Assembly: GCF_036195045.1 (NCBI RefSeq)
Contig: NZ_CP108100.1
Location: 3,968,001-4,032,000, forward strand
DNA: 64,000 bases
Origin: Streptomyces sp. NBC_00236
Lineage (GTDB): Bacteria; Actinomycetota; Actinomycetes; Streptomycetales; Streptomycetaceae
Reading direction: 5' to 3'
Below are positions 6,486 through 27,825 of the stretch, piece after piece. Positions within the stretch are counted from its first letter, which is position 1; every line of letters begins with the position of its first letter. A program made the translations under genes and the position numbers. The notes beneath the pieces are model-generated. The model searched no databases, was not told where the DNA came from, and saw only the letters and a program-made list of their open reading frames with translations.

Positions 6486-6995
6486 GTGAACGTGTTTCTT
6501 GGTCTCGGAATCGCGGGAATCGCGCTTCTCGCCCTGTCACTGATCTTCGACGGGATCCTCGAAGGACTCTTCGGGGGCCTGCTGGAAGGCCTCTTCAGCG
6601 GGCTGGTCTCCCTTCCGGTGATCGCCGGATTCCTCTCGATGCTCGGTTTCGGCGGCGCCATCGTGCTCGGTACGACCGGTGCCGGCACGATCGCCGCCAC
6701 CGCCGCCGGGGCGCTCGCCGGTCTGGTCGCGGCCTGGCTGACCTGGAAGTTCAGCCGGGCCCTGATGCGGGATCAGACCGATGCCACCCCGCGGGAGGCG
6801 GACCTCGTCGGCACGTCGGGGTCCGTGGTCACGGCCATTCCGGCCGACGGCTACGGGGAGGTGCTGGTGCAGCTCGGGGGCCAGCCCGTGAAGCTCTCGG
6901 CGAAGAGTCCGGTACCGGTCGCGCGCGGCGCCGAGATCTGGGTCGAGGCCACGCTCTCGACCACCTCGGTCTCGGTCCGTCCCGTCGAACGCTGA
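6486..6995 (+). CDS. NfeD-like membrane protein (flotillin partner)
   Basis: 169 residues. The first 100 are very hydrophobic with two to three membrane segments and glycine-rich turns. The last 70 residues (from about ADLVGTSGSVVTAI) form a beta-rich OB-fold-like domain as in NfeD proteins. GTG 6486 follows GGGAGGGG. It lies directly upstream of a flotillin gene, the conserved NfeD-flotillin arrangement known for YuaF-FloT (YuaG) of Bacillus. It probably helps assemble or position flotillin in membrane microdomains. It is a short NfeD without the serine-protease domain. Confidence 0.72.
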   Translation: MNVFLGLGIAGIALLALSLIFDGILEGLFGGLLEGLFSGLVSLPVIAGFLSMLGFGGAIVLGTTGAGTIAATAAGALAGLVAAWLTWKFSRALMRDQTDATPREADLVGTSGSVVTAIPADGYGEVLVQLGGQPVKLSAKSPVPVARGAEIWVEATLSTTSVSVRPVER

Positions 6996-7073: not shown

Positions 7074-8513
7074 ATGAGTCCAGTCCTGATCGCCATCGTC
7101 GGAGTCGTCGTACTCCTGTTCCTGCTCGCCCTCGCCGTCATCACGCGCTACAAGGTCGCGGGACCCAGCCAGGCCTTCATCATCACCGGACGCCGCGGCA
7201 AGAAGTCCGTGGACCCGGTGACCGGACGGTCCAGCATCGACAACAGCGGCCAGAAGGTCGTCGTCGGCGGCGGCGTCTTCGTCGTCCCGTTCGTCCAGCA
7301 GAAGTTCACCCTGGACCTGTCCAGCCGGCACATCCCCGTCGCCGTGCGCGGGGCCGTCACCCTGCGCGGGGTCAAGTCCCACCTCGAAGGCGTCGCCATC
7401 GTCAAGGTCGGCGGCAGCGAGGATGCCATCCGGGCCGCCGCCCAGCGCTTCCTCCAGCAGCAGGACGGCATCGTCGGCTTCACCCAGGAAGTGCTCTCCG
7501 GTGCGCTGCGCGCCATCGTGGGCCGGATGTCGGTCGAGGACATCATCCGCGACCGGGCCGCGTTCGCCGGCCAGGTGGCGGAGGAGGCCGAGGCCAGCCT
7601 GTCCGGTCAGGGCCTGATCCTGGACGCCTTCCAGATCCAGGACATCACCACCGAGGGCTCGTACCTGGAGGACCTCGGCCGCCCCGAGGCCGCCCGCGCC
7701 AAGCAGGAGGCGGACATCGCGGAGGCGATCGCCCGTCGCGCCTCGGAGCAGGCCCGGCTGAAGGCCGCCGAGGAGATCGCCATCGCCGAGCGGACGTTCT
7801 ACCTGAAGCAGGCCGAGATCAAGGCCGAGACGGAGGCCGCCGCGGCGATGGCCGCCGCAGCGGGTCCGCTCGCCGAGGCCGCCCGTCAGCAGGAAGTCCT
7901 CACCGAGCAGGAGAAGGTGGCCCAGCGTCAGGCCGCCCTGACCGACCGCGAGCTCGACACCAGGGTCCGCAAGCCCGCGGACGCCGCGCGCTACCAGGCC
8001 GAGCAGGAGGCGGAGGCCCGCCGCATCGCCCAGGTCAAGGAGGCCGAGGCGGACGCCGAGCGCTCCAGGCTGACCGGTCAGGGCGAGAAGCTGCACCGCT
8101 CGGCGCTCGCCGACGCCGTACGCATCGAGGGCGAGGCCGAGGCCGCCGCCATCGCCGCCCGGGGTTCGGCCGAGGCCGAGGCCATGCAGAAGAAGGCCGA
8201 CGCCTTCGCACAGTACGGCGACGCGGCCGTCCTCCAGATGCTCGTCGAGGTGCTCCCGCAGGTCGTCGCCAAGGCCTCCGAGCCACTGAGCGCCATCGAC
8301 AAGCTGACCGTGATCTCGACCGACGGCGCGAGCCAGCTGTCGCGCACGGTCACGGACAACGTCGCCCAGGGCATGGAGCTCCTCAGCTCCACCACGGGCG
8401 TCGACCTCGCCGCGCTGCTGAAGAACCTCAAGGGCGCGGGCCCGAAGGCGGAGGTCCCGGCCCAGCAGGACACCGCGGCCGAACCGAACGGCAAGATCGA
8501 GATCAGCGGCTGA
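7074..8513 (+). CDS. Flotillin family protein (SPFH/band 7, FloT-like)
   Basis: 479 residues: one N-terminal membrane hairpin (about 2-24), an SPFH/band 7 domain (about 30-200) with an ITRYKVAGPSQAFIITG entry, then a long Ala/Glu-rich coiled coil (about 205-400) typical of flotillins, and a short C-terminal tail. Flotillins oligomerise and organise lipid-ordered membrane regions. It is preceded by the NfeD-like gene and ends at a strong hairpin (8532-8566), so the two genes form one transcription unit. A second, longer flotillin lies at 16611, so this cell has two different types. Confidence 0.9.
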   Translation: MSPVLIAIVGVVVLLFLLALAVITRYKVAGPSQAFIITGRRGKKSVDPVTGRSSIDNSGQKVVVGGGVFVVPFVQQKFTLDLSSRHIPVAVRGAVTLRGVKSHLEGVAIVKVGGSEDAIRAAAQRFLQQQDGIVGFTQEVLSGALRAIVGRMSVEDIIRDRAAFAGQVAEEAEASLSGQGLILDAFQIQDITTEGSYLEDLGRPEAARAKQEADIAEAIARRASEQARLKAAEEIAIAERTFYLKQAEIKAETEAAAAMAAAAGPLAEAARQQEVLTEQEKVAQRQAALTDRELDTRVRKPADAARYQAEQEAEARRIAQVKEAEADAERSRLTGQGEKLHRSALADAVRIEGEAEAAAIAARGSAEAEAMQKKADAFAQYGDAAVLQMLVEVLPQVVAKASEPLSAIDKLTVISTDGASQLSRTVTDNVAQGMELLSSTTGVDLAALLKNLKGAGPKAEVPAQQDTAAEPNGKIEISG

Positions 8514-8689: not shown

Positions 8690-9160
8690 ATGGGAACCCA
8701 CCGCACCACACTGCCCGGAGTCGGTGTGCAGTACGACTACACCACCGAGTCCGGCCAGCACATCTCCGTCGTCGTCCACCACGACGGGCGCCGGTTCATC
8801 GGCTTCTACGACCAGGACGACCCCGATTCCTGCAAACTCTCCGTACCCCTGACTCCACAGGAGGCGACCGGCCTCGCCCACCTCATCGACGCGGCGCCGA
8901 TCGACGCCGTGCGGACCGAGGGCATCGACCTGGTCACCGAGCACATCCCGCTCGGGACGCGCTCCCCGTACGGCGGCCGGCTGCTCGGGGACACCCGGGC
9001 GCGGACCCGGACCGGGGCCTCCATCGTGGCGGTGCTGCGGACCCACAGCGCGCATCCGTCACCCGGGCCGGACTTCCGGCTCGCCATCGGGGACACGCTC
9101 GTCGCCGTCGGTACGAGGGAGGGCGTCGACACGCTCTCCGAGATCATTGCGGAGGGCTGA
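8690..9160 (+). CDS. Cation:proton antiporter regulatory subunit (TrkA-C/RCK-C domain, KhtT-like)
   Basis: 156 residues and soluble. The N-terminal part (about 1-75) is a small beta-rich domain. The C-terminal part (about 80-156), with GASIVAVLRTHSAHPSPGPDFRLAIGDTLVAVG compressed around a conserved glycine turn, is a TrkA-C / RCK-C ligand-binding domain. In B. subtilis KhtT this type of subunit gates the KhtU K+/H+ antiporter in response to c-di-AMP and pH, which is the probable role here. ATG 8690 has GGGAGG at the right spacing. The antiporter gene starts 2 bases after the stop, so translation is probably coupled. Confidence 0.85.
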   Translation: MGTHRTTLPGVGVQYDYTTESGQHISVVVHHDGRRFIGFYDQDDPDSCKLSVPLTPQEATGLAHLIDAAPIDAVRTEGIDLVTEHIPLGTRSPYGGRLLGDTRARTRTGASIVAVLRTHSAHPSPGPDFRLAIGDTLVAVGTREGVDTLSEIIAEG

Positions 9161-9162
9161 CC

Positions 9163-10431
9163 GTGCACGACACGACCGCACTGCTGGTGGAGCTCGGCTC
9201 CGTCATCCTGGGACTCGGCATCATCGGCCGGTTCGCCGGCCGCGTAGGACTCTCGCCCATCCCGCTGTACCTGCTGGCCGGGCTCGCCTTCGGCGAGGGC
9301 GGGCTGCTGCCCCTCGGGGCGAGCGAGGAGTTCACCGCCGTGGGCGCCGAGATCGGCGTCATCCTGCTGCTGCTCCTGCTGGGCCTCGAATACAGCGCCT
9401 CCGAACTCGTCACCAGTCTGAAGACCCAGTACCCCTCCGGCGCCGTGGACTTCGTCCTCAACGCGACCCCCGGCGCCGTCGCGGCGCTGCTGCTCGGCTG
9501 GGGACCGGTGGGGGCCGTGGCCCTGGCCGGGGTCACCTGGATCTCCTCGTCCGGGGTGATCGCCAAGGTCCTCGCGGACCTGGGCCGGCTCGGCAACCGG
9601 GAGACGCCCGTCATCCTCGGGGTGCTGGTCATCGAGGACCTGTCGATGGCCGTCTACCTGCCGCTGCTCACCGCGATGCTCGCCGGCGTCGGCTTCGCCG
9701 GAGGCAGCATCGCGCTGCTCGTCGCGCTCGGCACCGTCGGCTTCGTGCTCTACCTGGCGCTGCGCCACGGGCGGCTGATCAGCCGGGCGGTGTCCTCCGA
9801 CAACCCGGAGATGCTGCTGCTCGTCGTGCTCGGCCTGACCGTGCTGGTCGCCGGTGTGGCCCAGCAGCTGCAGGTCTCGGCGGCCGTCGGGGCGTTCCTC
9901 GTCGGCATCGCGCTCTCCGGTGAGGTCGCGGAGGGCGCGCGCAAGCTGCTGACCCCGCTGCGGGACCTCTTCGCCGCCGTGTTCTTCGTGTTCTTCGGGC
10001 TCTCCACCGATCCTGCGGAGATTCCGCCGGTGCTGCTGCCGGCCGCGCTGCTGGCCGTCGTCACCGTCTTCACCAAGATCGCCACCGGCTGGTACGCGGC
10101 CCGGCGGGCCGGCATCGGATCGCGCGGGCGCTGGCGGGCGGGCGGCACGCTCGTGGCCCGTGGCGAGTTCTCCATCGTCATCGCCGGACTGGCCGTGGCC
10201 ACCGAGCCCCGGATCGGGCCGATCGCCACCGCGTACGTCCTCATCCTCGTCATCGTGGGCCCGCTCACCGCGCGCTGGACCCAGCCGGCGGTCGAGCAGA
10301 TCCGGAAATGGCGCGGCAAGGACGACGGTACGGCCGGCAGGACCGGAACAGGCCCCGCCGCAAGGGTGCCCGCCGCGAAGGAGGAGCCGAAGACCGAGCC
10401 GGAGCTGGCCGCGTCCGCGGACACTCCTTAA
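9163..10431 (+). CDS. Cation:proton antiporter (CPA2, KefB/KhtU-like)
   Basis: 422 residues with about 12 membrane helices, matching the Na+/H+ exchanger (CPA2) domain, followed by a short charged tail without a TrkA-N domain. The missing regulatory domain is supplied in trans by the RCK-C protein encoded 2 bases upstream, the KhtT-KhtU arrangement. It probably exports K+ (or other monovalent cations) in exchange for protons, for pH and potassium homeostasis. It starts at GTG 9163. Its TAA overlaps the stop of the opposing MarR gene within the palindrome TTAA (10428-10431). Confidence 0.88.
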   Translation: MHDTTALLVELGSVILGLGIIGRFAGRVGLSPIPLYLLAGLAFGEGGLLPLGASEEFTAVGAEIGVILLLLLLGLEYSASELVTSLKTQYPSGAVDFVLNATPGAVAALLLGWGPVGAVALAGVTWISSSGVIAKVLADLGRLGNRETPVILGVLVIEDLSMAVYLPLLTAMLAGVGFAGGSIALLVALGTVGFVLYLALRHGRLISRAVSSDNPEMLLLVVLGLTVLVAGVAQQLQVSAAVGAFLVGIALSGEVAEGARKLLTPLRDLFAAVFFVFFGLSTDPAEIPPVLLPAALLAVVTVFTKIATGWYAARRAGIGSRGRWRAGGTLVARGEFSIVIAGLAVATEPRIGPIATAYVLILVIVGPLTARWTQPAVEQIRKWRGKDDGTAGRTGTGPAARVPAAKEEPKTEPELAASADTP

Positions 10432-13951: not shown

Positions 13952-14060
13952 GGTGCGGATCTCCCTCACTGCACACGCCACCGGAATCCCCCGGGTGATC
14001 ACGCTAGGCGCAGCTCGGCCTCCCCGCATGCGGGGAGAGCCGCGCACGGCGAACGCTGCC

Positions 14061-14440: not shown

Positions 14441-15526
14441 TCAGATCTCCTTGGCCGGCCAGTCCAGCAGCCGGGCCCCGATCACCGCGGTCTGCAGGGT
14501 GTAGCGGTGCATCGGGTCGGCCGGGTCGGAGCCGGTGAGCTGGTGGATCCGCTCCAGCCGGTACGTCAGCGCCCGTACGCTCAGCGCGAGGCGCCGGGCC
14601 GTCTCGGCCGCGACACAGCCGGCGTCGAAGTACACGGAGAGCGTCTTCAGCAGCGGCTCCGCGCCGCCCCGCGCCTGCTGGAGCGGGCCGAGCTCGCTGC
14701 GCACCAGATCGGCCATCGCCTGCCGGTCCCGGGTCAGCACGGGATAGACGAGCAGATCCGCGGCGTACAGGACGGGGTCGTCCAGACCCATCCGGTCCGC
14801 CAGATCGAGCGCGTCCAGCGCCTCGTCGTACGACTGGACCACCCCGCCGGGCCCCCGGTGGGGCCGGCCGACCGCCACCCGGCCGCCGTCCGTCGCCGCG
14901 TGCGCCTGCTTGGCGAAGTACCGCAGGACATCGGGCTGGCTGCCGGGCGCGATGCAGATCAGCCGGCCGTCCTTCGTCGTGAGCAGGATCTTGCGGCCGC
15001 TGAACCGGGCCAGCAGTGCCGACTCCACCTGCCGCGGCACGGCGTCGGTCTCGGTGTACGCCTCGGGGCCCGCCGCCACGGCAACGGCGTGCGCGCGGGA
15101 GAGCCGCAGCCCGAACCGGGTGGCGCGCTCGGCGAGCCGGCCCAGGTCGCTGCGTCCGTACAGCAGGTCGTCGATGAACTCCCGGCGGGCGGCCTCCTCC
15201 CGCCGGACGGTGAGGCGCTGGGCCCGCTCGAAACCCTCGGCGAACGCGTCGACCGTCTGCTCCACCGCGGCCAGCACGCTCTCGGTGGACGCGGCGGTGG
15301 CGGACGCCGTCGCTCCGGGAACGGCGGACGGCCAGGTGGCGCGGGTCTCGGCCAGATGCATCCGGACCAGGGCGCGCAGCTGGTGCCCGGCCTCCGCCGC
15401 CTGCCTGCCGAGGGTGCGGCGGGTGTCGAGCTCCTCCCGGGTCAGCCGACGTCCGGAGACGGCGACTTCGCCCAGGATCTGGGCGTAGCCCTCCAGAAAA
15501 TCGTCGGAAATCACCGGTTCCGCCAC
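14441..15526 (-). CDS. PucR/CdaR family transcriptional regulator
   Basis: About 361 residues. The middle carries a degenerate GGDEF-like/CdaR region, and the C-terminal 60 residues contain the PucR helix-turn-helix (HTH_30), with VAAETARRLALSVRALTYRL as recognition region. PucR proteins usually activate nearby purine, amino-acid or secondary-metabolite genes. GTG 15526 has GGAGG six bases upstream and is preferred to GTG 15553. It is divergent from the NfeD-like/flotillin operon. A perfect dyad at 15613-15631 in between is a possible binding site. Confidence 0.82.
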   Translation of the reverse strand: MAEPVISDDFLEGYAQILGEVAVSGRRLTREELDTRRTLGRQAAEAGHQLRALVRMHLAETRATWPSAVPGATASATAASTESVLAAVEQTVDAFAEGFERAQRLTVRREEAARREFIDDLLYGRSDLGRLAERATRFGLRLSRAHAVAVAAGPEAYTETDAVPRQVESALLARFSGRKILLTTKDGRLICIAPGSQPDVLRYFAKQAHAATDGGRVAVGRPHRGPGGVVQSYDEALDALDLADRMGLDDPVLYAADLLVYPVLTRDRQAMADLVRSELGPLQQARGGAEPLLKTLSVYFDAGCVAAETARRLALSVRALTYRLERIHQLTGSDPADPMHRYTLQTAVIGARLLDWPAKEI

Positions 15527-15612
15527 GCCCCGCCTCCACTCCTGATGCGTCACTGATATTTACACAACGCATACGCGCGCATGCCGGTGCCCGGCATCGA
15601 GCACGGAGAAAG

Positions 15613-15829: not shown

Positions 15830-16492
15830 ATGCAGGAGTTTCTGACCGCGACGCAGTCCTTCCCGGCCGTGCTCTTCTCCGCGGCCCTGGTCGTCGTCAT
15901 CGCCTTCTGGCTGCTCGTCCTGGCCGGTGCGGCGGACCACCACTCCTTCGACGCGGACCTCGACACCGATCTCGCCGGGATCGGCGGCGTGCCCGTCACC
16001 GTCTCGGTCTCCGTGATGGTGGCCGTCGGCTGGTTCTCGGCGCTGACCGGTTCGGTCCTGCTCCACCGCAGCGACACCACCGGAACCGTCCGGGCCGCGC
16101 TCGCCGTCGGCATCCTCGTCGGCGCGCTGCTGCTGGCCTGGGCCGTGGTGCGGCTGCTGGTGCACCACTTCCGCCGCTTCTTCGCCGACCAGCCTCCTCC
16201 ATCGCGTCAGGACTTCCTGGGCCGGGTCTGCACGATCCGTACCGGCTCGGTCGGCACGGACTTCGGTCAGGCGGAGGTCGCCGCGGCCGACGGATCCACC
16301 GCGATCGTGCAGGTACGCCAACTGGCGCCGGCCGACGACGCGCTGTCGGCGGGAAGTCCGGGACTGCTGTACGCGTACGACGACACGGGCGAGTTCTTCT
16401 GGGTCTCCCCGTACGACCGTGCGCTCGACCCGGGACCGCCGCCGGCCCTGCCGCGTACGCACCGCCGTACGCCGCCCCGCCGCACCGCCTGA
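15830..16492 (+). CDS. YqiJ-like OB-fold membrane protein (NfeD-like flotillin partner)
   Basis: 220 residues. There are three hydrophobic segments (about 13-34, 56-78 and 88-110), then a cytoplasmic C-terminal half of OB-fold type starting at DFLGRVCTIRTGSV and rich in beta strands. This is the layout of E. coli YqiJ, whose gene precedes flotillin yqiK exactly as here. ATG 15830 follows GGGAGG. The C-terminus is Pro/Arg-rich. It probably helps insert or stabilise the flotillin encoded 118 bases downstream. It differs from the NfeD-like protein at 6486 and represents a second subtype. Confidence 0.75.
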   Translation: MQEFLTATQSFPAVLFSAALVVVIAFWLLVLAGAADHHSFDADLDTDLAGIGGVPVTVSVSVMVAVGWFSALTGSVLLHRSDTTGTVRAALAVGILVGALLLAWAVVRLLVHHFRRFFADQPPPSRQDFLGRVCTIRTGSVGTDFGQAEVAAADGSTAIVQVRQLAPADDALSAGSPGLLYAYDDTGEFFWVSPYDRALDPGPPPALPRTHRRTPPRRTA

Positions 16493-16610
16493 TCCGACAC
16501 GCCCCGTACCGCTCCGTGCTGCCCCGTGCCGCTGCGCGCTGCCCGGATCCGCGCGGGCCGCACACCCCTCCTTCTTCTCCTGTCCGCACCACCAGCCGCC
16601 AAGGACTGTC

Positions 16611-18719
16611 ATGGAAGCCATCTCCTTGGGCCTCGGCCTGATCGTCGCCGTGGTCCTGCTCATCGCGATCGCCCTGCTCCTGGTCGTCACCCGGCTCTTC
16701 CGCAAGGTGGAGCAGGGCAAGGCCCTGATCATCTCCAAGACCAAGAAGGTCGACGTGACCTTCACCGGTGCCGTCGTCCTGCCGGTCCTCCACAAGGCCG
16801 AGTCCATGGACATCTCGGTGAAGACCATCGAGATCCGCCGCACCGGCCGCGAGGGCCTGATCTGCCAGGACAACATCCGCGCCGACATCCACATCACGTT
16901 CTTCGTCCGGGTCAACAAGACGGTCGAGGACGTCATCAAGGTCGCCCAGGCCATCGGTACGGAACGGGCCAGCGACAAGGTGGCGATCCAGGAGTTCTTC
17001 GCAGCGAAGTTCTCCGAGGCGCTCAAGACCGTCGGCAAGCAGCTGGACTTCGTCGACCTCTACACCAAGCGCGAGGAGTTCCGGGACCGGATCATCCGGG
17101 TCATCGGCACCGACCTCAACGGCTACCACCTCGACGACGCGGCGATCGACTTCCTCGAGCAGACCCCGATGGTGCAGCTGGACGGCGCCAACATCCTTGA
17201 CGCGCAGGGCATTCGGAAGATCACCGAGCTGACGGCGATCGAGCACGTACGGACCAACGAGTTCCAGCGCACGGAGCAGAAGGAGATCACCCGGCAGGAC
17301 GTCGACGCCCGGGAGACCATCCTGGAACTGGAGCGCCGGCAGGCCGAGGCCGAGATCAAGCAGCGCCGCGAGGTGGAGACGCTGCGCGCCCGCGAGGAGG
17401 CGGTCACCGCCCGCGTCCAGGAGGAGGAACGCCTGGGCGCCCAGGCCGCGTTCATCAAGACCGAGGAGCAGCTCGGTATCCAGCGCGAGAACCAGGCCCG
17501 GGAGATCGCCGTCGCGCAGAAGAACCGCGAGCGGGTCATCGCCGTGGAGAACGAGCGCATCGAGAAGGACCGCATGATCGAGGTCATCGGGCGCGAGCGG
17601 CAGACCGAGCTCAACCGCATCGCCGCGACGAAGGAGGTCGAGGCGGAGCGCCGCGAGGTCGCCGACGTGATCCGCGAACGCATCGCGGTGGACCGTACGG
17701 TCGCCGAGCAGGAGGAGTCCATCAAGACCCTGCGGTCCGTCGAGGAGTCCGAGCGCACCCGCAAGTCCGTGATCATCGCCGCGGAGGCGGAGGCGCAGGA
17801 GCAGCTGGTCAAGGACATCAAGGCAGCGGAGGCGGCCGAGGCGGCGGCGACGCACCGGGCCGCCGAGCAGCTGACCCTCGCGGAGGCCCGGCTGAAGACC
17901 GCGGACCTGGACGCGCGGGCCAAGCTGCGGCTGGCCGAGGGGGTCCAGGCGGAGTCGGCGGCGCCCGGGCTCGCGGACGTACAGGTACGGGACGCGGCGG
18001 CCGAGGTCGTCGAGAAGACCGGCCGGGCCGAGGCCGAGGCGACGTCCGCCCGGCTCAGGGCCGAGGCGGAGGGCTCCCGGCTCAAGGCGCTCGCGACGGC
18101 CGAGGGCACCCGGGCCCAGGCGACGGCGGACGCGGCGATGATCGGCGAGAAGCTGAAGGCCGAGGCGGCGGGGCTCACGGACAAGGCGGCCGCGATGGCG
18201 GCACTGGACGACGCGTCGCGCGGACACGAGGAGTACCGGCTGCGGCTGGCGGCGGAGAAGGAGATCCGGCTTGCCGGGCTGGAGGTCCAGCGCCAGGTCG
18301 CCGAGGCGCAGGCGACGGTGCTGGCGACGGGTCTGGAGAACGCCGACATCGACATCGTCGGCGGGGAGTCGGTCTTCTTCGACCGGCTGGTCTCGTCCAT
18401 CTCCCTGGGCAAGAGCCTCGACGGGTTCGTCGAGAACTCCGACACGGCGAAGGCGCTGGGCGGTGCGTGGCTGAACGGCACGTCGTCGTTCACGGACGAC
18501 GTGACGCGGGTGCTGGGGTCGGTGTCGTCGGGTGACGTACAGAACCTGACGGTGTCGGCGCTGCTGATGCGGATGATGGCTGCGCCGGGGGTGGGGGGCG
18601 TCGGCGCGGACCAGGTCCGCCAACTCCTGGACCACGCGCGGTCCCTGGGCCTGGCGGACGTCCCGGTCGCCGCCGTGCCGAGCCCTTCGCCCTCGCGGAA
18701 CGGTACGCCGGTGGGGTAG
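16611..18719 (+). CDS. Large flotillin family protein (YqiK-like)
   Basis: 702 residues: one N-terminal membrane helix (about 5-28), an SPFH/band 7 domain (about 30-200), a very long charged Glu/Arg/Ala coiled coil (about 205-560) and a C-terminal flotillin tail. The pairing with a YqiJ-like protein points to the YqiK branch. It is much longer than the FloT-like copy at 7074. It probably scaffolds membrane domains. The next genes on this strand (AAA+ ATPase, RCK membrane protein) follow after a 423-base REP-like region and could form one functional unit. Confidence 0.9.
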   Translation: MEAISLGLGLIVAVVLLIAIALLLVVTRLFRKVEQGKALIISKTKKVDVTFTGAVVLPVLHKAESMDISVKTIEIRRTGREGLICQDNIRADIHITFFVRVNKTVEDVIKVAQAIGTERASDKVAIQEFFAAKFSEALKTVGKQLDFVDLYTKREEFRDRIIRVIGTDLNGYHLDDAAIDFLEQTPMVQLDGANILDAQGIRKITELTAIEHVRTNEFQRTEQKEITRQDVDARETILELERRQAEAEIKQRREVETLRAREEAVTARVQEEERLGAQAAFIKTEEQLGIQRENQAREIAVAQKNRERVIAVENERIEKDRMIEVIGRERQTELNRIAATKEVEAERREVADVIRERIAVDRTVAEQEESIKTLRSVEESERTRKSVIIAAEAEAQEQLVKDIKAAEAAEAAATHRAAEQLTLAEARLKTADLDARAKLRLAEGVQAESAAPGLADVQVRDAAAEVVEKTGRAEAEATSARLRAEAEGSRLKALATAEGTRAQATADAAMIGEKLKAEAAGLTDKAAAMAALDDASRGHEEYRLRLAAEKEIRLAGLEVQRQVAEAQATVLATGLENADIDIVGGESVFFDRLVSSISLGKSLDGFVENSDTAKALGGAWLNGTSSFTDDVTRVLGSVSSGDVQNLTVSALLMRMMAAPGVGGVGADQVRQLLDHARSLGLADVPVAAVPSPSPSRNGTPVG

Positions 18720-18731
18720 CCGGGGCCTTTT

Positions 18732-19098
18732 GTCCTCAAACGCCGGACGGGCTGAATCGGACTGCGCCCCGTCCGCCTGAGGAGCCCCGGGGCGCGGTCC
18801 GTCCTCAAACGCCGGACGGGCTGGCGATGCCCGGACAGGCGGGGCGCCCACGCGGCGCACGACAACGCCGGACACATCGAGCCCGAGCCCGAAATCAAGC
18901 CCGTCCGGCGCTTGAGGACACCCCCGGACCGTCGTCAACCCGCACGGCAACCCGAGCCCGAGATCAAGCCCGTCCGGCGCTTGAGGACAGCCCGGCGCAC
19001 CGGAACCCGAGGCCACAACCAAACCCGTCCGGCGCTTGAGGACAGCCCGGCGCACCGGAACCCGAGGCCACAACCAAACCCGGCCGGCGCCTGAGGAC
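18732..19098. repeat. Cluster of REP-like 22-bp repeats between flotillin and AAA+ ATPase genes
   Basis: Copies of GTCCTCAAACGCCGGACGGG or its complement occur at 18732-18753 and 18801-18822 (one orientation) and at 18898-18919, 18967-18988, 19022-19043 and about 19077-19098 (opposite orientation), with a decayed copy near 18862. Around the last three, a roughly 55-bp block is tandemly duplicated. Opposed copies could fold into long hairpins. The region contains no gene and may act as an mRNA stabiliser or attenuator. The same motif ends the palindromic element at 45096-45560. Confidence 0.88.
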
Positions 19099-19142
19099 AA
19101 CGCCGGCCGCAGGTCACACCACCGCCCCAAGGAGCCGCCCGC

Positions 19143-22100
19143 ATGGACACCGCCACCTCGTCACCCCCGGACGGCCCCGAGGCCGGGGCCCACGACGTGC
19201 TGCGGAGGCGGCTCCGCACCCAGGCCGCCGAGCTCACCCACCGCGCCGAGGCGCTCAACACGCAGCGGACCGAGGAGTTCGGCTCCACCGGACTCCAGCT
19301 GCTCGGCAGCGAGCAGGTCCGGACGGCTCAGCCGTCCGCCGCCCGCGACCTCGTCGCCATCGGCGGCCAGCTCCTGTTCGGCTTCGAGCGTGGCCCGGGC
19401 CGGCGCGACGAGCCCGTGGTCGACGACGTACTCAGGGCGTACGGAACCGAGTTGACCCCCGTCACCGCCCCGCTCCTCGCCGACGAGCCCTTCGTGCGCG
19501 AGTTCGGCGGCCTCCACCGCTACTACCGCGACGCCCGCCTGCTGCGGCTGCGCCGTACCAATGGACGGCTCCTCGCCGTCTTCCGTACCGGCGAGAACGC
19601 CGAGGACATCCGCGTCCTGCGCTGGGCACTGGACGCCGACGGGTCGCCCGGCGCGTTCCTCGACGCCCGCGGCGAGCGCGACCACGTGTTCCCGCCGTCG
19701 CACGACTTCGCCTGGACGGTCGCGGGCCGCGAGGCCCACGTCCCCGGCCGTCACCCGCACATCGCCATCGGCGCACGCCGAACCGAGGACGGTGACGGCG
19801 CCCCCCTCTACCTCTCCACGCTCGGCGGACACCTCACCCTCAAGACCGTCGACGACACGGAGACCCCCGACGGAATCTACCGCGAACCGGTCACCGAACC
19901 CCTCCAGTCGCTCGCCGACGCCGAGGTCGCGTACGCGGAGTCCGGGCCGCTCGTCCTGCTCCGCGTCCGGCCGTACAAGGAGGACGCCTGGCGCCATCTC
20001 GTCTTCAACCGGCTCCTCGGCACCGTGCAACGGCTCGACGGGATCGGCCCCTCCTGCCATCTGCTCCCCGAGGACCAGGGGATCATCTTCCCCGGCGGCT
20101 ACTACCTGACCGCCGGCACCGCGAAGACCTTCGACATCGCCGAACCCCTCACCGACCCCGTCTTCGAGGGGGCCGTCCGCTCCCCCAACGGCGAGGACGT
20201 CCTGTACGTGTTCCGTTCACGGGAGGACGGGCGCAGCCTGCTGCTCCCGTACAACGTGATCCGGCAGGAGGTCGCCACCCCGCTCCAGGGCCGCGGCCAC
20301 GCGCTGCTCGACGATGGCACGCTGGTGCTCCTGCGCGACCCGGTGGAGGGCAGGGACGCCGGCCCGGCCCGCGTCCACCCGGTGCAGCGGTGGCGGACGC
20401 CGTACGTCTCCGACACCTTCGCCGCCTCCCGGCCGCCCGGGACGGGCCCGCTCGCCCGGGTCGGCAACGCCGACCTCGTGCGCGGCATCTCCGACTGCCT
20501 CGCACTCGCGCAGAGCGCCGAAGCGACGACCCCGACGGCCGCCGTCTACGCCCGGCTGGTGGCGGACTGCTCCCGCGCCGCCGACCGCTACCACTGGCTG
20601 GACGACATCGAACTCGGCTCTCTCGGCGCCCCGTTGGCCGCGCTCCGCGACACCGCACAGCAGGTGCTCGCCGAGTTCGACGCCGTGCAGGAGCAGATCC
20701 GGAGCGCCGCGGACGCCCTCACCGAGACGGCGGACCGCATCACCGTCCTGGTCCGCCGGGTCCGCGGCGAGGCTCCCCGGTCGGCCGCCGACTGGGTCGA
20801 CAGGCTGACCGAACTACGGGCCGCGCACGGCCACTTGGCCGGCCTCGCCGAGATGCGGTACGCGGACACCGGGCGGATCGCCGAACTCACCGCCGCCACC
20901 GCGGACGACATCGCCTCGGCAGGCCGGCGCGCGGTCGCGTTCCTGTCCTGGGACGACGCGTTCGCCGGCTACCACGAGGACGTCGCCCGGCTCACCGAGC
21001 AGGCCGCCGGCCTCGCCACGGTCACCGACGCCACCGTGCTCGGCGAGCGGCTGGCGGGGATGACGGGCGGGCTGAGCACGGTGACGGACGTCGTCGCCGG
21101 GCTCGACATCGGTGACGGCGTGGTCCGCACCTCGATCCTGGAGCGGATCGCGGACGTCCTCGGCGGGGTGAACCGGGCCCGCGCCACGCTCGACGCCCGC
21201 CGGCGCGCCCTGCTCGACCAGGAGGGCCGGGCCGAGTTCGCCGCCGAGTTCGCGCTGCTGGGACAGGCCGTCACGGCCGCGCTGGCCGCCGCGGACACCC
21301 CGGACGCCTGCGACGACCAGCTCGCGCGGCTGCTGCTCCGACTGGAGGACCTTCAGGCACGGTTCGCCGAGTACGACGACTTCCTCGCCGCGCTGGGCGA
21401 GCGGCGGACGGAGGTGTACGAGGCGTTCTCGGCCCGCCGGCAGACCCTTCAGGACGCGCTCGCCCGCCGGACGGAACGCCTCGCGGCCTCCGCCGCCCGC
21501 GTCCTGGAGACCGTCACCCGGCGCAGTTCCGCGCTGGCCGACGCGGACGCCGTGCACACCTATTTCGCCTCCGACCCCATGGTCGCCAAGGTCCGCCGCA
21601 CCGCCGAGGAGCTGCGCGGGCTCGGCGACACAGTCAGGGCCGAGGAGCTCGACGGGCAACTGCTGGCCGCCCGCCAGGAGGCGGGCCGGGCGCTGCGTGA
21701 CCGCAGCGAGCTGTACGCGGACGGCGGGGCGACGGTCCGGCTGGGCCGGCACCGGTTCGCGGTGAACACCCAGCCGTTCGAGCTGACACTGGTGCCGCAG
21801 GCGGACGGCCTCGCGTTCGCCGTCACCGGCACCGACTACCGGGCGCCGGTCACCGACCCGGGGTTCGCCGACACCCGCCCGTACTGGGACCAGCTGCTGC
21901 CCTCCGAGTCGCCGTCCGTCTACCGGGGCGAGCACCTGGCCGCCCGGCTCCTGGCCGAACACGGCGCGGAGCGGCTGAGTTCGCTGGACGACACCGAACG
22001 TGCCGCACTCGTCCGGGAGTCGGCGGCCGCCGCCTACGACGAGGGGTACCAGCGCGGGGTCCACGACGAGGACGCCACGGCGATCCTCGCCGCCCTGCTG

Positions 22101-24116
22101 CGGCTGCACGCGACCGCCGGGCTGCTGCGTTTCCCGCCCGCCGTACGGGCCGCCGCCCAGCTGTTCTGGGCGGACGGGACGGACGAGGCCCGCAGGACGT
22201 CCTGGTCGCGCCGGGCCCGCTCCCTGGCACGCGCCCGCGAGACGTTCGGTAGCGGCCCTGCCGTCGCCGCGCTCCAGGAGGAGTGGGCGTCGGTCATCCC
22301 GGGAGACGGCTCCCGGGCCGTCGCCGCGTATCTCTTCGAGGAGCTGACCAGCGGCCCCGACGGCTTCGTCACCGCCGCGCACCTCCGCACGTTCCTGGAC
22401 AAGTTCCGTCGCACGACCGGCACTTCGGCGTACGACGAGGACCTGACCGCCCTCAGGGACGACCTGCCGGCCCGCCGCCAGCTCGTCGAGGGCTGGCTCA
22501 GCTCGTACGCCCGGGCGAGCGGGACGGACCTGGAGGCGGGTGATCTCGCGGAGGCCGTCGCCGTCGAGCTCTGCCCGGAGCCGGTGCTGGCCCGCTACGA
22601 GGGCGACGCCCCGCTGACCGCGACCGTGGACGGGCTCCTCGGCGTCCATTCACGCATCGAGCGGGGCCGGATGACCGTACGGATCGACGAACTCCTTGTC
22701 CGTACCGAGACGTTCCGCACCGATACCGTCCCCGGCTTCCGCGCCTACCAGCGCCGGCGCACCGCCCTGGTCTCCGCCGAACGCACCCGGCTGCGGCTGG
22801 ACGACCACCGGCCCCGGATCATGTCCGCGTTCGTCCGCAACCGGCTGCTCGACGAGGTCTACCTGCCGCTGATCGGCGACAGCCTCGCCAAGCAGCTCGG
22901 CACCGCGGACGCCGACCGGCGCACCGACTCGCAGGGCCTGCTGCTGCTCGTGTCACCGCCCGGCTACGGCAAGACGACGCTCATGGAGTACGTCGCCGAC
23001 CGGCTCGGAATGGTGCTCGTCAAGGTCAGCGGGCCGAACCTCGGCCACGACGTGACCTCACTGGACCCCGCCCAGGCCCGCAGCGCGACCGCGCGCCAGG
23101 AGATCGAGAAGATCAACTTCGCGCTGGAGGCGGGCAACAACACCCTGCTCCACATCGACGACATCCAGCACACCTCACCGGAACTGCTCCAGAAGTTCAT
23201 CCCGCTCTGCGACGCCACCCGCAGGATCGAAGGCGTACGGGACGGCGAGCCGCGCAGCTACGACCTGCGGGGCAAGCGGTTCGCGGTGTGCATGACGGGT
23301 AATCCGTACACCGAGTCCGGGGAGCGGTTCCAGGTCCCCGACATGCTGGCCAACCGGGCCGACGTCTGGAACCTGGGCGAGGTGCTGAGCGGGCGCGAGG
23401 ACGTCTTCGCGCTGAGCTTCGTCGAGAACGCGCTGACCGCCAACCCGGTGCTGGCACCGCTCGCCGGCCGGTCCCGCGAGGACCTCGCCCTGCTGCTGCG
23501 GCTCGCCTCCGGCACCGACGCCACCGCCCGCGCGGACCGGCTCCAACACCCCTACGCCCCCGCCGAAGTGGACCGGATCACCGCCGTGCTCCGCCATCTG
23601 CTGCACGCCCGCGACACCGTGCTCGCGGTCAACGCCGCGTACATCGCCTCGGCCGCACAGACCGATGCGACCCGCACCGAACCGCCGTTCCGCCTCCAGG
23701 GCTCGTACCGCAACATGAACCGCATCGCGGAGCGCATCGTGCCCGTGATGAACGACGCCGAACTGTCCGCCGTCATCGACGACCACTACACGGGCGAGGC
23801 CCAGACGCTCACCACGGGCGCCGAGTCCGCCCTGCTGAAACTCGCCGCCCTGCGCGGAACGCTCGGCCCCGAGCAGGCCGCGCGCTGGTCCGCCGTCACC
23901 GCCTCGTACGTCCGCGGCCAGGCGCTCGGCGGCCCCGACGGCGATCCGCTGACCCGCGCGGTGGCCGCGCTCGGGGTGCTCGCGGACCGGATCGCGGCTG
24001 TCGAGACGGCGATCAGCAGGGCCGCCGACCCGCGCCACCTGCTCGCCCGGCCGCCGTCCGAAGCACACTCCGAGACGCCCTCCGGGACACACTCCGGGAC
24101 ACACGAGGGCCGCTGA
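19143..24116 (+). CDS. Giant AAA+ ATPase (DUF3686-type 'DNA repair ATPase')
   Basis: 1657 residues. The N-terminal 450 residues resemble DUF3686, a beta-rich region with many VLYVFR / YLSTLGG strands. A long helical middle (about 480-900) follows, then the AAA+ module at about 1240-1560. Walker A is SPPGYGKTT (G1274-T1278), Walker B LLHIDDIQ (D1339-D1340), and sensor-1 is TGNP (N1387), a MoxR-like layout. The DNA repair label of this family is historical and untested. It sits between flotillin and a double-RCK membrane protein, so a membrane-associated remodelling role is more likely here (inference). Start ATG 19143 is clear. Confidence 0.85.
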   Translation: MDTATSSPPDGPEAGAHDVLRRRLRTQAAELTHRAEALNTQRTEEFGSTGLQLLGSEQVRTAQPSAARDLVAIGGQLLFGFERGPGRRDEPVVDDVLRAYGTELTPVTAPLLADEPFVREFGGLHRYYRDARLLRLRRTNGRLLAVFRTGENAEDIRVLRWALDADGSPGAFLDARGERDHVFPPSHDFAWTVAGREAHVPGRHPHIAIGARRTEDGDGAPLYLSTLGGHLTLKTVDDTETPDGIYREPVTEPLQSLADAEVAYAESGPLVLLRVRPYKEDAWRHLVFNRLLGTVQRLDGIGPSCHLLPEDQGIIFPGGYYLTAGTAKTFDIAEPLTDPVFEGAVRSPNGEDVLYVFRSREDGRSLLLPYNVIRQEVATPLQGRGHALLDDGTLVLLRDPVEGRDAGPARVHPVQRWRTPYVSDTFAASRPPGTGPLARVGNADLVRGISDCLALAQSAEATTPTAAVYARLVADCSRAADRYHWLDDIELGSLGAPLAALRDTAQQVLAEFDAVQEQIRSAADALTETADRITVLVRRVRGEAPRSAADWVDRLTELRAAHGHLAGLAEMRYADTGRIAELTAATADDIASAGRRAVAFLSWDDAFAGYHEDVARLTEQAAGLATVTDATVLGERLAGMTGGLSTVTDVVAGLDIGDGVVRTSILERIADVLGGVNRARATLDARRRALLDQEGRAEFAAEFALLGQAVTAALAAADTPDACDDQLARLLLRLEDLQARFAEYDDFLAALGERRTEVYEAFSARRQTLQDALARRTERLAASAARVLETVTRRSSALADADAVHTYFASDPMVAKVRRTAEELRGLGDTVRAEELDGQLLAARQEAGRALRDRSELYADGGATVRLGRHRFAVNTQPFELTLVPQADGLAFAVTGTDYRAPVTDPGFADTRPYWDQLLPSESPSVYRGEHLAARLLAEHGAERLSSLDDTERAALVRESAAAAYDEGYQRGVHDEDATAILAALLRLHATAGLLRFPPAVRAAAQLFWADGTDEARRTSWSRRARSLARARETFGSGPAVAALQEEWASVIPGDGSRAVAAYLFEELTSGPDGFVTAAHLRTFLDKFRRTTGTSAYDEDLTALRDDLPARRQLVEGWLSSYARASGTDLEAGDLAEAVAVELCPEPVLARYEGDAPLTATVDGLLGVHSRIERGRMTVRIDELLVRTETFRTDTVPGFRAYQRRRTALVSAERTRLRLDDHRPRIMSAFVRNRLLDEVYLPLIGDSLAKQLGTADADRRTDSQGLLLLVSPPGYGKTTLMEYVADRLGMVLVKVSGPNLGHDVTSLDPAQARSATARQEIEKINFALEAGNNTLLHIDDIQHTSPELLQKFIPLCDATRRIEGVRDGEPRSYDLRGKRFAVCMTGNPYTESGERFQVPDMLANRADVWNLGEVLSGREDVFALSFVENALTANPVLAPLAGRSREDLALLLRLASGTDATARADRLQHPYAPAEVDRITAVLRHLLHARDTVLAVNAAYIASAAQTDATRTEPPFRLQGSYRNMNRIAERIVPVMNDAELSAVIDDHYTGEAQTLTTGAESALLKLAALRGTLGPEQAARWSAVTASYVRGQALGGPDGDPLTRAVAALGVLADRIAAVETAISRAADPRHLLARPPSEAHSETPSGTHSGTHEGR

Positions 24117-24145
24117 CCGTACCGATCACGAGAAGGGAGCAAGGC

Positions 24146-26134
24146 ATGCTGGGACTTGTGCCTCCTCTTCCCCAGCAGCCCCAACGCTCCCCCCTCTCCG
24201 GACACATGGTCGTCTGCGGCGACGACGCGCTCGCCCAGCGGCTCGCCGTCGAACTGCGGTACGTCTACGGGGAGCGGGTCACCCTGGTCCTGCCCCCGGA
24301 GCCCGGCACGGCCGGACCGGAGCTGCCGCTGACCGGGCGAGGCCGGGCGGCCGCGCTGTTCGGCCGGATGTCGTCGGCGATGAGCCGCAACGGGGGCAAC
24401 GGCGCCGGGAACGGGGACGGCGACACCAATGCCGGCGTGGAGGCGGTCCGCATCCTCCAGGCGGCCGAACCCTCCGACGAGGCCTTCGAGGAGGCCGGCG
24501 TCGGCACGGCCGCCGCGCTGGCCCTCGTCTACGACGACGACGAGCGCAACATCCGTGCCGCGCTGACCGCCCGCAGGCTCAACCCCCGTGTCCGGCTGGT
24601 GATCCGGCTCTACAACCGCAAGCTCGGCCAGCATCTGGAGACCCTGCTGGACCAGGCGGCCGCCGTCGCCTCACCCGGCATCGACCAGACCGTGCTGGAC
24701 GCCTCCACCACGGTCCTGTCCGACGCCGACACCGCGGCGCCCGCCCTCGCGGCGACCGCGCTCTCCGGCTCCAGCAAGGTGATCCAGGCGGAGGGTCTGC
24801 TCCTGCGCGCCGCCGAGCGCACCCCGCCGCGGGACGGCCAGGCCGTCCGCCCGGCCCTGTGCACGCTGGCGCTGCTCTCCTCCACCACCCATGACCCGGC
24901 CGGCACCGAGGGCTCCGACAGCAGCGGCGACGAGGGCCCCCGGCTCCTGCCCGACCAGGCGCAGGTGGCCGCCGCGACGGGACGCGGGACGATCGTCCTG
25001 GAGGCCGTCAGCCGGCCGGGCCCCACCGGCCGCGAACGCCGGATGGGGGGCAGGGGCGCCCCGCTGGGCCAGGTCTTCTCGCGGCGGCTGCGCTGGTCCG
25101 CGCTGGGCGTCGGCGCGGCCGTCCTGGGACTCGCGGTGGCGTCCACGTTCACCACCGGGGACGAGCCGGTGCACGCCGCGTATCTGACGCTGCTCGACCT
25201 GTTCGCGATGGGCGACCCGGCGATCGGTGACCCGACCGCCCGCCAGGTCATCCAGATCCTGTCCGGGGTCGCCGGGCTGATGCTGCTGCCCCTGCTGGTG
25301 GCCGGGGTGCTGGAGGCGTTCGGGTCGCTGCGCACCGCCTCCGCCCTGCGCCGGCCGCCGCGCGGTCTGTCGGGGCACGTGGTGCTGCTCGGTCTCGGCA
25401 AGATCGGTACGCGCGTCCTCGTCCAGCTGCGTGAACTCGGCATCCCCGTGGTGTGCGTGGAGGACGACCCGGACGCCCGCGGCATCCCCGTGGCACGACG
25501 GCTGCGGGTGCCGGTGGTCCTCGGGGACGTGACGCAGGAGGGCGTCCTGGAGGCCGCGAAGATCCGCCGTTCCCGCGCACTGCTCGCCCTGACCAGCGTC
25601 GACACCACGAACCTGGAGGCCGCGCTGTACGCCCGCTCGGTCAAGCCGGACCTGCGGGTGACGCTGCGGCTCTTCGACGACGAGTTCGCCACCGCCGTCT
25701 ACCGCACCCTGCGCACCGCCCATCCGCAGGCGCTGACCCGGTCCCGGTCGGTCTCGCATCTGGCGGCGCCGTCGTTCGCCGTCGCCATGATGGGCCGGCA
25801 GATCCTGGGGGCGGTGCCGGTCGAGCGGAAGGTGATGCTGTTCGCCGCGGTCGAGGTGGCCGGGCACCCGCAGCTGGAGGGCCGGACGGTGGAGCAGGCG
25901 TTCCGGGCCGGTGCCTGGCGGGTCCTCGCCCTGGACGTGGCGCAGCCCGCCGACCGCCGGCCGGACCTGGCCACGCCGGTCACGGGCGACGGCGCCCAGG
26001 ACCGGCCGGCCGGACTGGTCTGGAACCTGCACCCGGGGTACGTACTCCAGCCCACCGACCGGGTCGTCATCGCCGCGACCCGCCGCGGCCTGGCCGAACT
26101 CCTGCGCAGGCGCGGTTCGTTGACCCGGCACTGA
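24146..26134 (+). CDS. Membrane protein with two TrkA-N/RCK Rossmann domains (ion-channel-like)
   Basis: 662 residues. The N-terminal RCK-like Rossmann domain starts at GHMVVCGDDALAQRLAVEL. Near 320-395 there are two hydrophobic helices, WSALGVGAAVLGLAVAS and LSGVAGLMLLPLLVAG, enclosing a short P-loop-like segment. A second RCK domain follows (HVVLLGLGKIGTRV, then a PVVLGDVTQEGVLEAA acidic strand). This is the plan of CASTOR/POLLUX-type and Kch-like channels, but the canonical TVGYG filter is absent; the loop reads LLDLFAMGDP. It follows the AAA+ gene by 29 bases with a GAAGGGAG site, so they are co-transcribed. Function as a true channel is uncertain. Confidence 0.78.
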   Translation: MLGLVPPLPQQPQRSPLSGHMVVCGDDALAQRLAVELRYVYGERVTLVLPPEPGTAGPELPLTGRGRAAALFGRMSSAMSRNGGNGAGNGDGDTNAGVEAVRILQAAEPSDEAFEEAGVGTAAALALVYDDDERNIRAALTARRLNPRVRLVIRLYNRKLGQHLETLLDQAAAVASPGIDQTVLDASTTVLSDADTAAPALAATALSGSSKVIQAEGLLLRAAERTPPRDGQAVRPALCTLALLSSTTHDPAGTEGSDSSGDEGPRLLPDQAQVAAATGRGTIVLEAVSRPGPTGRERRMGGRGAPLGQVFSRRLRWSALGVGAAVLGLAVASTFTTGDEPVHAAYLTLLDLFAMGDPAIGDPTARQVIQILSGVAGLMLLPLLVAGVLEAFGSLRTASALRRPPRGLSGHVVLLGLGKIGTRVLVQLRELGIPVVCVEDDPDARGIPVARRLRVPVVLGDVTQEGVLEAAKIRRSRALLALTSVDTTNLEAALYARSVKPDLRVTLRLFDDEFATAVYRTLRTAHPQALTRSRSVSHLAAPSFAVAMMGRQILGAVPVERKVMLFAAVEVAGHPQLEGRTVEQAFRAGAWRVLALDVAQPADRRPDLATPVTGDGAQDRPAGLVWNLHPGYVLQPTDRVVIAATRRGLAELLRRRGSLTRH

Positions 26135-26200
26135 CACCGGGCCGGGCGCCCCGCGATATCCGGATGCCCGGTGCGGCCCCGGCCTCCTACCCTGCCCTCC

Positions 26201-26791
26201 ATGGACAAGGAACCGGAGCCGCGTCTCCTCAACGTCATCGACATCGAGGCGACCTGCTGGGACGGACAGCCGCCGCCGGGAGCGGTGAGCGAGATCATCG
26301 AGATCGGGCTGACGGTCCTCGATCTGCACGCCCGCGAGCGCCTCGCCCGCCACCGCGTCCTGGTCCGCCCGGTCCGCTCCTCGGTCAGCGCCTTCTGCAC
26401 CGAACTGACGGGCCTCACCCAGGCCGAGGTCGACACCGGCCTCCCCTTCGCCGACGCCTGCCGGCTGCTGGCGGCCGAGCACCGGGCCGGGACCCGCGCC
26501 TGGGCGAGCTGGGGCGACTACGACCGCAAGCAGTTCACCCGCCAGTGCGAGGCGACCGGCACGCCTTACCCGTTCGGCCACCGCCACACGAACGCCAAGA
26601 TCCCCTTCACCACCGCCCACGGCCTGCGCAAGCGCCCCGGCATGGCGCATGCCCTCCGGATCGCGGGGCTCCCGCTGGAGGGCCGGCACCACAGCGGCGC
26701 GGACGACGCGTGGAACATCGCGGCGCTGATCCTGGACGTGGTGGCCCGCGACGGATGGCCGTCGGAGAACCCTGCGGGTCAATACATCTAG
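26201..26791 (+). CDS. 3'-5' exonuclease (DEDDh family)
   Basis: 196 residues. Exonuclease motifs are visible: Exo I NVIDIEATCW (Asp and Glu), Exo II-like SWGDYDRKQF, and Exo III HHSGADDAWN with the His four residues before the Asp. This fits the DEDDh KapD/ERI1-like group, which trims RNA or DNA 3' ends. Two metal ions are expected at the acidic residues. It is convergent with trpS, and their stop codons overlap (26788-26791). The physiological substrate is unknown. Confidence 0.85.
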   Translation: MDKEPEPRLLNVIDIEATCWDGQPPPGAVSEIIEIGLTVLDLHARERLARHRVLVRPVRSSVSAFCTELTGLTQAEVDTGLPFADACRLLAAEHRAGTRAWASWGDYDRKQFTRQCEATGTPYPFGHRHTNAKIPFTTAHGLRKRPGMAHALRIAGLPLEGRHHSGADDAWNIAALILDVVARDGWPSENPAGQYI

Positions 26792-27825
26792 AGCAGGCCC
26801 CCCATCGCCTCCCGCACCTCCGCCAGCGTCGCGTCGGCGATCTCGTTGGCGCGCTCGTTGCCGGCCCGCAGCACGGACCGGACGTAGCCCATGTCCCGTG
26901 CGTACTCCGCCCGTCGGGCCCGCATCGGCGCCATCCGGCTGTTGACCGCGTCGGTCACGGTCCGCTTGAGGGCCGCCGCGCCCCCGCCCCCGATCTCCTC
27001 GGCCACGTCGTGCGGGTCCCGGTCGAGACAGAGCGCGGCGAGCTGCACCAGACCGGACACCCCGGGCCGGCTCTCGGGGTCGTACGTGATGTGGCGTTCG
27101 GCGTCCGTGGTCGCTCCCTTGATCAGCCGGGCCGTGGCATCCTCGTCGGCGCTCAGCGCAACGGAGTTGGCGCGGCTCTTGCTCATCTTGGTGCCGTCGG
27201 TGCCGAGCAGCAGGGGTGCGGCGGAGAGCAGCGCCTCGGGGTCCGGGAAGAGTGACCCGTAGCGCTCGTTGAACCGCCGGGCGACGGTCCGGGTCACTTC
27301 GAGATGGGGCACCTGGTCCTGGCCGACCGGCACCACGTTGCCCTTGCAGAACAGGATGTCGGCCGCCTGATGCACCGGGTAGGTGAACATCAGGCCGCTC
27401 ACGGCCGCCTGGCGTGAGTGCGCGATCTCGTCCTTGACGGTGGGGTTGCGGCCGAGTTCGGCGACGGAGACCAGACTCAGGAACGGCAGCAGCAGCTGGT
27501 TGAGCGCGGGTACGGCGCTGTGGTTGAAGATCACCGATCGTTCCGGGTCGATGCCGACGGCCAGGTAGTCCAGCAGCAGCCCCTCCATGATCGGGGTGAG
27601 CCGCTCCGCCACGTCCCGGTCGGTGAGCACCTGGTAGTCGGCGACGAGGACGAACACCTCGACCCCGAGGTCCTGGAGCCGCACCCGGTTGTGGAGCGTG
27701 CCGAAGTAGTGCCCGAGGTGCAGCGCCCCGGTGGGCCGGTCGCCGGTCAGGACCCGGAAGGCGGCGGGGTCCCGGTGGATCCGCTCGTCGAGCGTGGCGG
27801 TGCTGTCGGGGCAGGTCGTGGTCAT
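26788..27825 (-). CDS. trpS: Tryptophanyl-tRNA synthetase (inducible TrpRS-1 type)
   Basis: 345 residues. It is a class I synthetase with the HIGH-type motif HLGH at residues 36-39 and KMSKS at about 217. It charges tRNA-Trp in the cytoplasm. It is preceded by a leader peptide with two adjacent Trp codons and a terminator hairpin, so it is regulated by ribosome-mediated attenuation. In S. coelicolor the inducible, indolmycin-resistant TrpRS is controlled this way, so this is probably the accessory inducible enzyme with a second constitutive TrpRS elsewhere (inference). An AGGAGA site lies 8 bases before ATG 27825. Confidence 0.93.
   Translation of the reverse strand: MTTTCPDSTATLDERIHRDPAAFRVLTGDRPTGALHLGHYFGTLHNRVRLQDLGVEVFVLVADYQVLTDRDVAERLTPIMEGLLLDYLAVGIDPERSVIFNHSAVPALNQLLLPFLSLVSVAELGRNPTVKDEIAHSRQAAVSGLMFTYPVHQAADILFCKGNVVPVGQDQVPHLEVTRTVARRFNERYGSLFPDPEALLSAAPLLLGTDGTKMSKSRANSVALSADEDATARLIKGATTDAERHITYDPESRPGVSGLVQLAALCLDRDPHDVAEEIGGGGAAALKRTVTDAVNSRMAPMRARRAEYARDMGYVRSVLRAGNERANEIADATLAEVREAMGGLL

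Follow-up and report, generated by a model that had tools for sequence, protein, structure and literature searches.

In a 64,000-nucleotide stretch of the Streptomyces sp. NBC_00236 genome (contig NZ_CP108100.1, positions 3,968,001 to 4,032,000; hereafter, the window), the genes for a YqiJ-like membrane protein, a flotillin and a DUF3686/DUF7902/AAA+ ATPase form a real unit, and this unit is linked non-randomly to cation-transporter genes. The gene that follows, encoding a protein with two RCK domains, is a frequent companion and not a required part of the unit. A first-pass annotation of the window had proposed all four genes as an uncharacterized membrane system; the four plus-strand open reading frames (ORFs) were found at 15830-26134 where it had placed them, in the order YqiJ-like, flotillin, ATPase and RCK. 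The explanation that we favor, and hold at about even confidence, is that an ATP-driven flotillin module for membrane maintenance has been recruited into a scrambled monovalent-cation and pH stress island.

Co-occurrence and order of the flotillin and ATPase genes

To begin with co-occurrence, 246 Streptomyces genomes were surveyed, 125 with a DUF3686 ATPase over the cut-off and 121 without. A flotillin relative (E ≤ 1e-60) was found in 126 genomes, and 125 of them are the ATPase-bearing ones; the only unmatched flotillin is a fragment in genome G342, and genome G249 holds an ATPase fragment below the cut-off. The latter was one of four ATPase rows dropped from 132, the other three being second fragments of one gene. 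Moreover, 78 of the 81 called ATPases have the flotillin gene as their immediate upstream neighbor in the same orientation; the three exceptions are two contig edges and one split ATPase gene. Adjacency, gap statistics and clusters were obtained with a purpose-made gene caller, and in these counts the window's clade comprises the window and the loci up to L100. The pairing of YqiJ-like protein and flotillin, already recognized in the first-pass annotation, holds in the called loci, where the trio forms a unit.

The flotillin-ATPase pair is also kept outside Streptomyces, in loci from Nonomuraea, Deinococcus, Pseudomonas, Hymenobacter and Proteus, as well as in another genus of the same phylum (locus L134); further matches in Halomonas, Photobacterium and Vibrio were left out of this comparison. 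A YjfI or Tir-type chaperone gene, then PspA, precedes the trio on plasmid pQBR103 of Pseudomonas and in Hymenobacter. The gap between the flotillin and ATPase genes is 423 bp in the window, with a median of 261 bp (58-652) in its clade and of 98 bp in the other loci, which indicates that close packing is common and that the gap in the window is filled by repeats. These are 55-nt units with arms of 21-28 nt, whose core 21-mer has 23 copies genome-wide (at most one mismatch) as against none for the reversed control, and folding of the 423-nt gap gave -222 kcal/mol (z -5.5 versus shuffles).

Linkage to the RCK gene and to cation transporters

An RCK relative (E ≤ 1e-100) was detected in 211 of the 246 genomes, namely in 114 of the 125 with the ATPase and in 97 of the 121 without it (Fisher p 0.017). 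RCK as an obligate fourth member had to be abandoned on these numbers, as 97 genomes have it without the ATPase and 11 ATPase genomes lack it at this threshold; it is not required, since it is kept in loci and genomes devoid of the flotillin-ATPase pair. Nevertheless, the link is not random. Positions of the RCK matches for 23 ATPase genomes absent from the main RCK listing were obtained separately, and all RCK linkage counts are lower bounds, as weaker second RCK copies of other genomes are unlisted. At least 77 of the 128 ATPase copies have RCK on the same contig, at least 47 of those within 30 kb. In 52 ATPase genomes holding 54 copies, RCK lies within 20 kb of at least 22 copies, against 0.25 expected by random placement, and of at least 11 of the 41 copies outside the window's clade (here, RCK identity of at least 78%, as in the NhaA splits below). 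Accordingly, of the two neighbors that the ATPase had been expected to keep, flotillin proved constant and RCK only partly so.

The order and strand of RCK and ATPase genes vary between loci. In the window they are 29 bp apart on the same strand, and 51 such adjacent same-strand pairs were counted, among the called loci only in the window's clade; a check for conserved order of the four genes, as initially proposed, thus holds for the trio and fails for RCK beyond that clade. In a tree of RCK proteins (80 proteins, 74 scored, FastTree), the presence of the ATPase in the locus changes at least eight times, and 5 of the 32 survey genomes with RCK at least 78% identical to that of the window have no ATPase. 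Named close relatives of the window's RCK protein and ATPase are from Streptomyces, and class-wide, 16 of 197 genomes match RCK at E ≤ 1e-40, 14 from the same genus and two from one other genus with 38-39% identity.

We then focused on further cation transporters. NhaA was surveyed in genomes with few contigs, 52 of the 125 that bear the ATPase and 45 of the 121 that lack it, leaving out G249 and G342; TrkH was searched in the 52 ATPase-bearing genomes only. One sub-threshold and five short NhaA rows (G214, just over the cut-off, G325, G241, G310 and G202) and a second TrkH fragment (G375) were dropped, and a partial NhaA (G372) was kept for linkage and excluded from the two-copy count. Of the 54 ATPase copies, 16 have NhaA within 20 kb (0.43 expected), again in varying orders and strands, and RCK or NhaA lies within that distance of at least 29 of the 54 and of at least 18 of the 41 outside the window's clade. 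TrkH is present in 12 of the 52 genomes and within 30 kb of the ATPase in 5 of the 12, against about 0.09 expected. In addition, 21 of 52 genomes with the ATPase have more than one NhaA gene of non-fusion length, versus 3 of 45 without it (p 1.1e-4), and 14 of those 21 have one near the ATPase. The long NhaA type, taken as a negative control, showed no bias (9 of 52 versus 10 of 45, p 0.61).

Individual loci have the same composition. Genome G128 carries two islands on contig C1, one at about 0.37 Mb and the other at about 2.60 Mb; both combine ATPase, RCK and NhaA genes inside 20 kb, and one of its ATPases was called as two ORFs (L130). On a Streptomyces plasmid the order is TrkG, TrkA, antiporter, CBS, NhaD, PucR, RCK, YqiJ position, flotillin and ATPase. 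A mobilizable plasmid of S. goshikiensis (L142) has no ATPase and encodes a second flotillin, its 169-aa companion and a PucR regulator that are 76%, 66% and 67% identical to those of the window, together with antiporter, CBS and NhaD genes and a nearby IS256 transposase gene; its RCK-like sequence matches in two pieces and frames, without a listed gene, and may be broken. The second flotillin and the 169-aa protein recur as a pair in L133, L135 and this plasmid. In the window, they are followed by a KhtT-like subunit and a cation/proton antiporter, all four genes lying between 6486 and 10431, and in L132 genes of two window-upstream clusters (the stretch with KhtT-like, antiporter and second flotillin genes) stand just upstream of the trio. 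The four-gene system as first delimited was thus incomplete, missing this wider neighborhood, and linkage of the flotillin-ATPase pair to cation transporters is unreported in the titles and abstracts of the open-licence literature searched.

Proposed membrane maintenance under ionic stress, and alternatives

Operons of the type CesT/Tir-PspA-flotillin-AAA+-YqiJ have been described, along with an "abbreviated" (shortened) phage shock protein (PSP)-type form (Ravi et al. 2024, PMC11237479), so that the trio is already on record as a set, if a poorly understood one. Like those operons, the window combines a YqiJ/YuaF protein with three transmembrane (TM) segments, a band-7/flotillin protein and a large AAA+ protein with extra N-terminal domains in one unit; unlike them, its locus has RCK, PucR and cation antiporters nearby instead of PspA. 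Section 19 of PMC11237479 gives no RCK or antiporter partner for the CesT-PspA-flotillin group and places a potassium channel in a third (polyamine) group. The AAA+ protein of PSP operons has a fused N-terminal beta-propeller and coiled coil; that of the window has the DUF3686 region. As PspA is absent from the window locus (CesT was not searched), this is at most the abbreviated form; the two PspA genes of the 8.33 Mb, single-contig genome are each more than 1.5 Mb away.

A comparable arrangement is the bac operon of Pseudomonas aeruginosa, for which reverse-transcription PCR in PA14 showed six genes, bacA-F (PMC2587700, PMC10948618). It includes a chaperone-like BacA and a PspA-like BacB, the latter lacking a counterpart in the window locus, and two genes resembling YqiJ and flotillin in size (PA3730, 23 kDa; PA3729, 76 kDa); PA3728, numbered next to them, appears as "ATPase" in a table of a cystic fibrosis adaptation paper (PMC8190622). 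BacB rises on osmotic shock (PMC2587700, PMC10948618), Bacillus sigma-W controls FloA and FloT and responds to alkaline and salt shock (PMC8581546), and in Streptomyces, CpeAB probably exchanges K+ for H+, with cyclic di-AMP stimulating the interaction of its subunits (c-di-AMP; PMC10117811). As in KhtTU/CpeAB, the KhtT match in the window runs almost end to end and the antiporter gene follows directly. Unlike CpeA, the KhtT-like subunit does not contain the c-di-AMP signature quoted in PMC10117811; as printed there, the signature is also absent from the antiporter, RCK and ATPase proteins of the window and from all six called TrkA_C cluster members, the window's included.

Taken with the linkage data, these reports point to a membrane under ionic or pH stress as the likeliest setting, and the frequent placement among Na+/K+ transport genes suggests that the unit helps cells survive salt or pH stress. 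The three proteins may work as one membrane-maintenance machine of the PSP-associated type. Its membrane-bound scaffold would consist of flotillin and YqiJ; the ATPase, a soluble protein, would attach to this scaffold through its long N-terminal part and spend ATP on assembling or disassembling oligomers of flotillin (or of PspA), which would keep the membrane ion-tight under stress. In Streptomyces, the machine would have joined a loosely organized and frequently rearranged island that serves monovalent-cation and pH homeostasis and also includes Trk, the RCK-pore-RCK protein, antiporters (NhaA, the KhtTU type and others), the PucR regulator and the second flotillin; RCK would then be an effector working in parallel with the ATPase in one stress programme, and not its obligate client. 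A large family of "DNA repair ATPases" would thereby gain a testable physiological setting, namely the membrane under monovalent-cation and pH stress.

Several observations weigh against this reading. NhaA was found near the ATPase only outside the window's clade (16 of 41 copies versus 0 of 13 inside), and the NhaA of the window's genome is about 194 kb from the locus. Thirteen of 20 fetched loci (L115-L127) had been picked because RCK is far away, and in 12 of them no clustered cation-transporter gene was seen, single genes being left unannotated; since only L121 showed one, a second, transporter-free context is common in Streptomyces. None of the six non-Streptomyces loci has RCK nearby. 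In L040, L052, L065 and L071, RCK stands beside the PucR gene, and flotillin and ATPase are gone. Because the surveyed genomes share ancestry, linkage is less significant than the expected values suggest. Finally, a terminator-like stem and T run lies at the flotillin stop (18708-18723); the region has three terminator-like sites versus 2.1 expected, near the shuffled mean. As a separate observation, shortened YqiJ genes lie upstream of RCK in L040 and L065, footprints of a loss.

It is also possible, though we think it rather unlikely, that the trio is a plain abbreviated PSP operon with PspA encoded elsewhere, and that RCK and antiporters are its neighbors by ancestry or in accessory-gene hotspots, with no joint function. 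The published description of the trio as such (PMC11237479), the two distant PspA genes, the much wider distribution of RCK (211 versus 125 of 246 genomes) and the transporter-free loci would all fit. However, clustering with the ATPase is seen for RCK, for NhaA and for TrkH, with gene order and strand varying in the case of RCK and NhaA; the long NhaA type is unbiased, and ATPase presence switches repeatedly on the RCK tree.

Two bolder proposals concern what the ATPase acts on. The flotillin-AAA+ pair might be an ATP-driven quality-control machine for monovalent-cation transporters, with antiporters and the RCK-pore-RCK channel gathered into flotillin domains and remodelled under salt or alkaline stress; we consider this improbable, but if true, it would be an ESCRT/AAA-like counterpart for ion transport. 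Less probable still is the direct action on the RCK protein that was first suggested, with the ATPase assembling, extracting or gating it: the 29-bp same-strand gap and the 51 adjacent pairs of the window's clade speak for it, but such adjacency is confined to that clade among called loci, 5 of the 32 close-RCK genomes and the loci L040, L052, L065 and L071 have RCK and no ATPase, and RCK is missing at E ≤ 1e-100 from 11 genomes with the ATPase.

The patchy distribution in the genus (125 of the 246 genomes) and the occurrence on plasmid records could point to an anti-phage defence module, which seems very improbable given that PADLOC returned only weak P-loop matches to IetA (E 0.005-0.006) and that 50,697 phage records contain no relative, a result bearing on phage carriage only. 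Hardly credible is a DNA-repair ATPase, as the Pfam title has it, because the weak RuvB similarity is limited to the P-loop region, the ATPase is constantly partnered by membrane proteins, as the membrane setting proposed at the outset would have it, and the Pfam scan, covering part of the neighbors, showed no repair protein. The name "DNA repair ATPase" is borne by many of the 120 ATPase relatives listed and accompanies the title of PF12458, "ATPase involved in DNA repair"; no supporting evidence was seen here, and DUF3686 is not mentioned in the open-licence paper texts searched.

Protein domains and features of the window

In the ATPase, Pfam matched DUF3686 at residues 30-484 (558 bits), DUF7902 at 605-688 and AAA at 1267-1343, with AAA_5 just above its cut-off. 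The stretches starting at 1272, 1335 and 1384 are the Walker A, Walker-B-like and sensor-1-like motifs. Relatives number 5,016 at E ≤ 0.001 among 7,992 scored. Placement of the AAA+ domain in a clade failed, with a poor model (pLDDT 55.8) whose Foldseek hits include RuvB, CbbQ and NorQ, and with mixed RuvB and MoxR matches. The flotillin has a membrane segment at residues 8-26 and no direct Pfam SPFH match, and its Pseudomonas counterpart (44% identical) matches Band_7 at 9e-11; we assign it to SPFH from this counterpart, which supplies the Band_7 domain expected after the N-terminal anchor, and from the names of annotated relatives. The YqiJ-like protein has hydrophobic segments at 13-31, about 48-78 and 89-107. 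The OB-fold domain expected after them is putative, as the protein has no match to Pfam NfeD/YqiJ and its Deinococcus counterpart matches NfeD only below threshold. It is homologous to the YqiJ-position proteins of Pseudomonas (25% identity, E 2e-13) and Hymenobacter (26%, E 8e-12), and also to those of the Proteus and Nonomuraea loci.

The RCK motifs noticed in the first-pass annotation correspond to two TrkA_N stretches (Pfam), separated by a pair of hydrophobic helices at 319-337 and 371-389. In the structure model (mean pLDDT 70.6), helices 313-337, 341-352 and 364-392 would be TM1, pore helix and TM2. Potassium channels carry the selectivity signature T-x-G-Y/F/L-G, and none of the 45 RCK sequences contains it; in the model, RCK1 is followed by a two-helix pore lacking this signature and then by RCK2. 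It differs from the TrkA gating ring, where two RCKs form one soluble chain, in having two TM helices between them, and from the MthK and GsuK channels in both the position of the pore-like segment between the RCKs and the missing signature. The selectivity of such a channel-like protein is directly testable.

Table 1. Coordinates of the features described, in window positions
Feature	Position	Strand	Size and basis
YqiJ/YuaF-like 3-TM membrane protein	15830..16492	+	220 aa; ORF, hydrophobic segments, homologous to YqiJ-position proteins
Flotillin (SPFH), one N-terminal TM helix	16611..18719	+	702 aa, ATG at 16611; Pseudomonas counterpart
Intergenic direct and inverted repeat array	18731..19105	.	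between flotillin and ATPase genes
DUF3686-DUF7902-AAA+ ATPase	19143..24116	+	1657 aa; Pfam, no hydrophobic helix
RCK1, two-helix pore-like domain, RCK2 protein	24146..26134	+	662 aa; TrkA_N, model
PucR-type regulator (GGDEF_2 and HTH_30)	14441..15526	-	divergent from YqiJ gene; recurrent neighbor
Unnamed 169-aa protein	6486..6995	+	travels with second flotillin
Second flotillin (Band_7 and Flot)	7074..8513	+	shorter; recurrent island member
KhtT/CpeA-like regulatory subunit (TrkA_C)	8726..9160	+	KhtT match E 2.5e-9, residues 3-136
Cation/proton antiporter (Na_H_Exchanger)	9163..10431	+	KhtU/CpeB-like by position and domain

No Rfam family reached the gathering threshold in window positions 4000-30000, and promoter-like sites in the region numbered 0 versus 0.2 expected. 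An apparent plus-strand gene at 13940-15556 ("up1") was rejected, the coding strand there being the minus strand with the PucR regulator. Directly after the RCK gene lies an RNase_T-type exonuclease gene (26171-26791), which is convergent with trpS (26788-27825).

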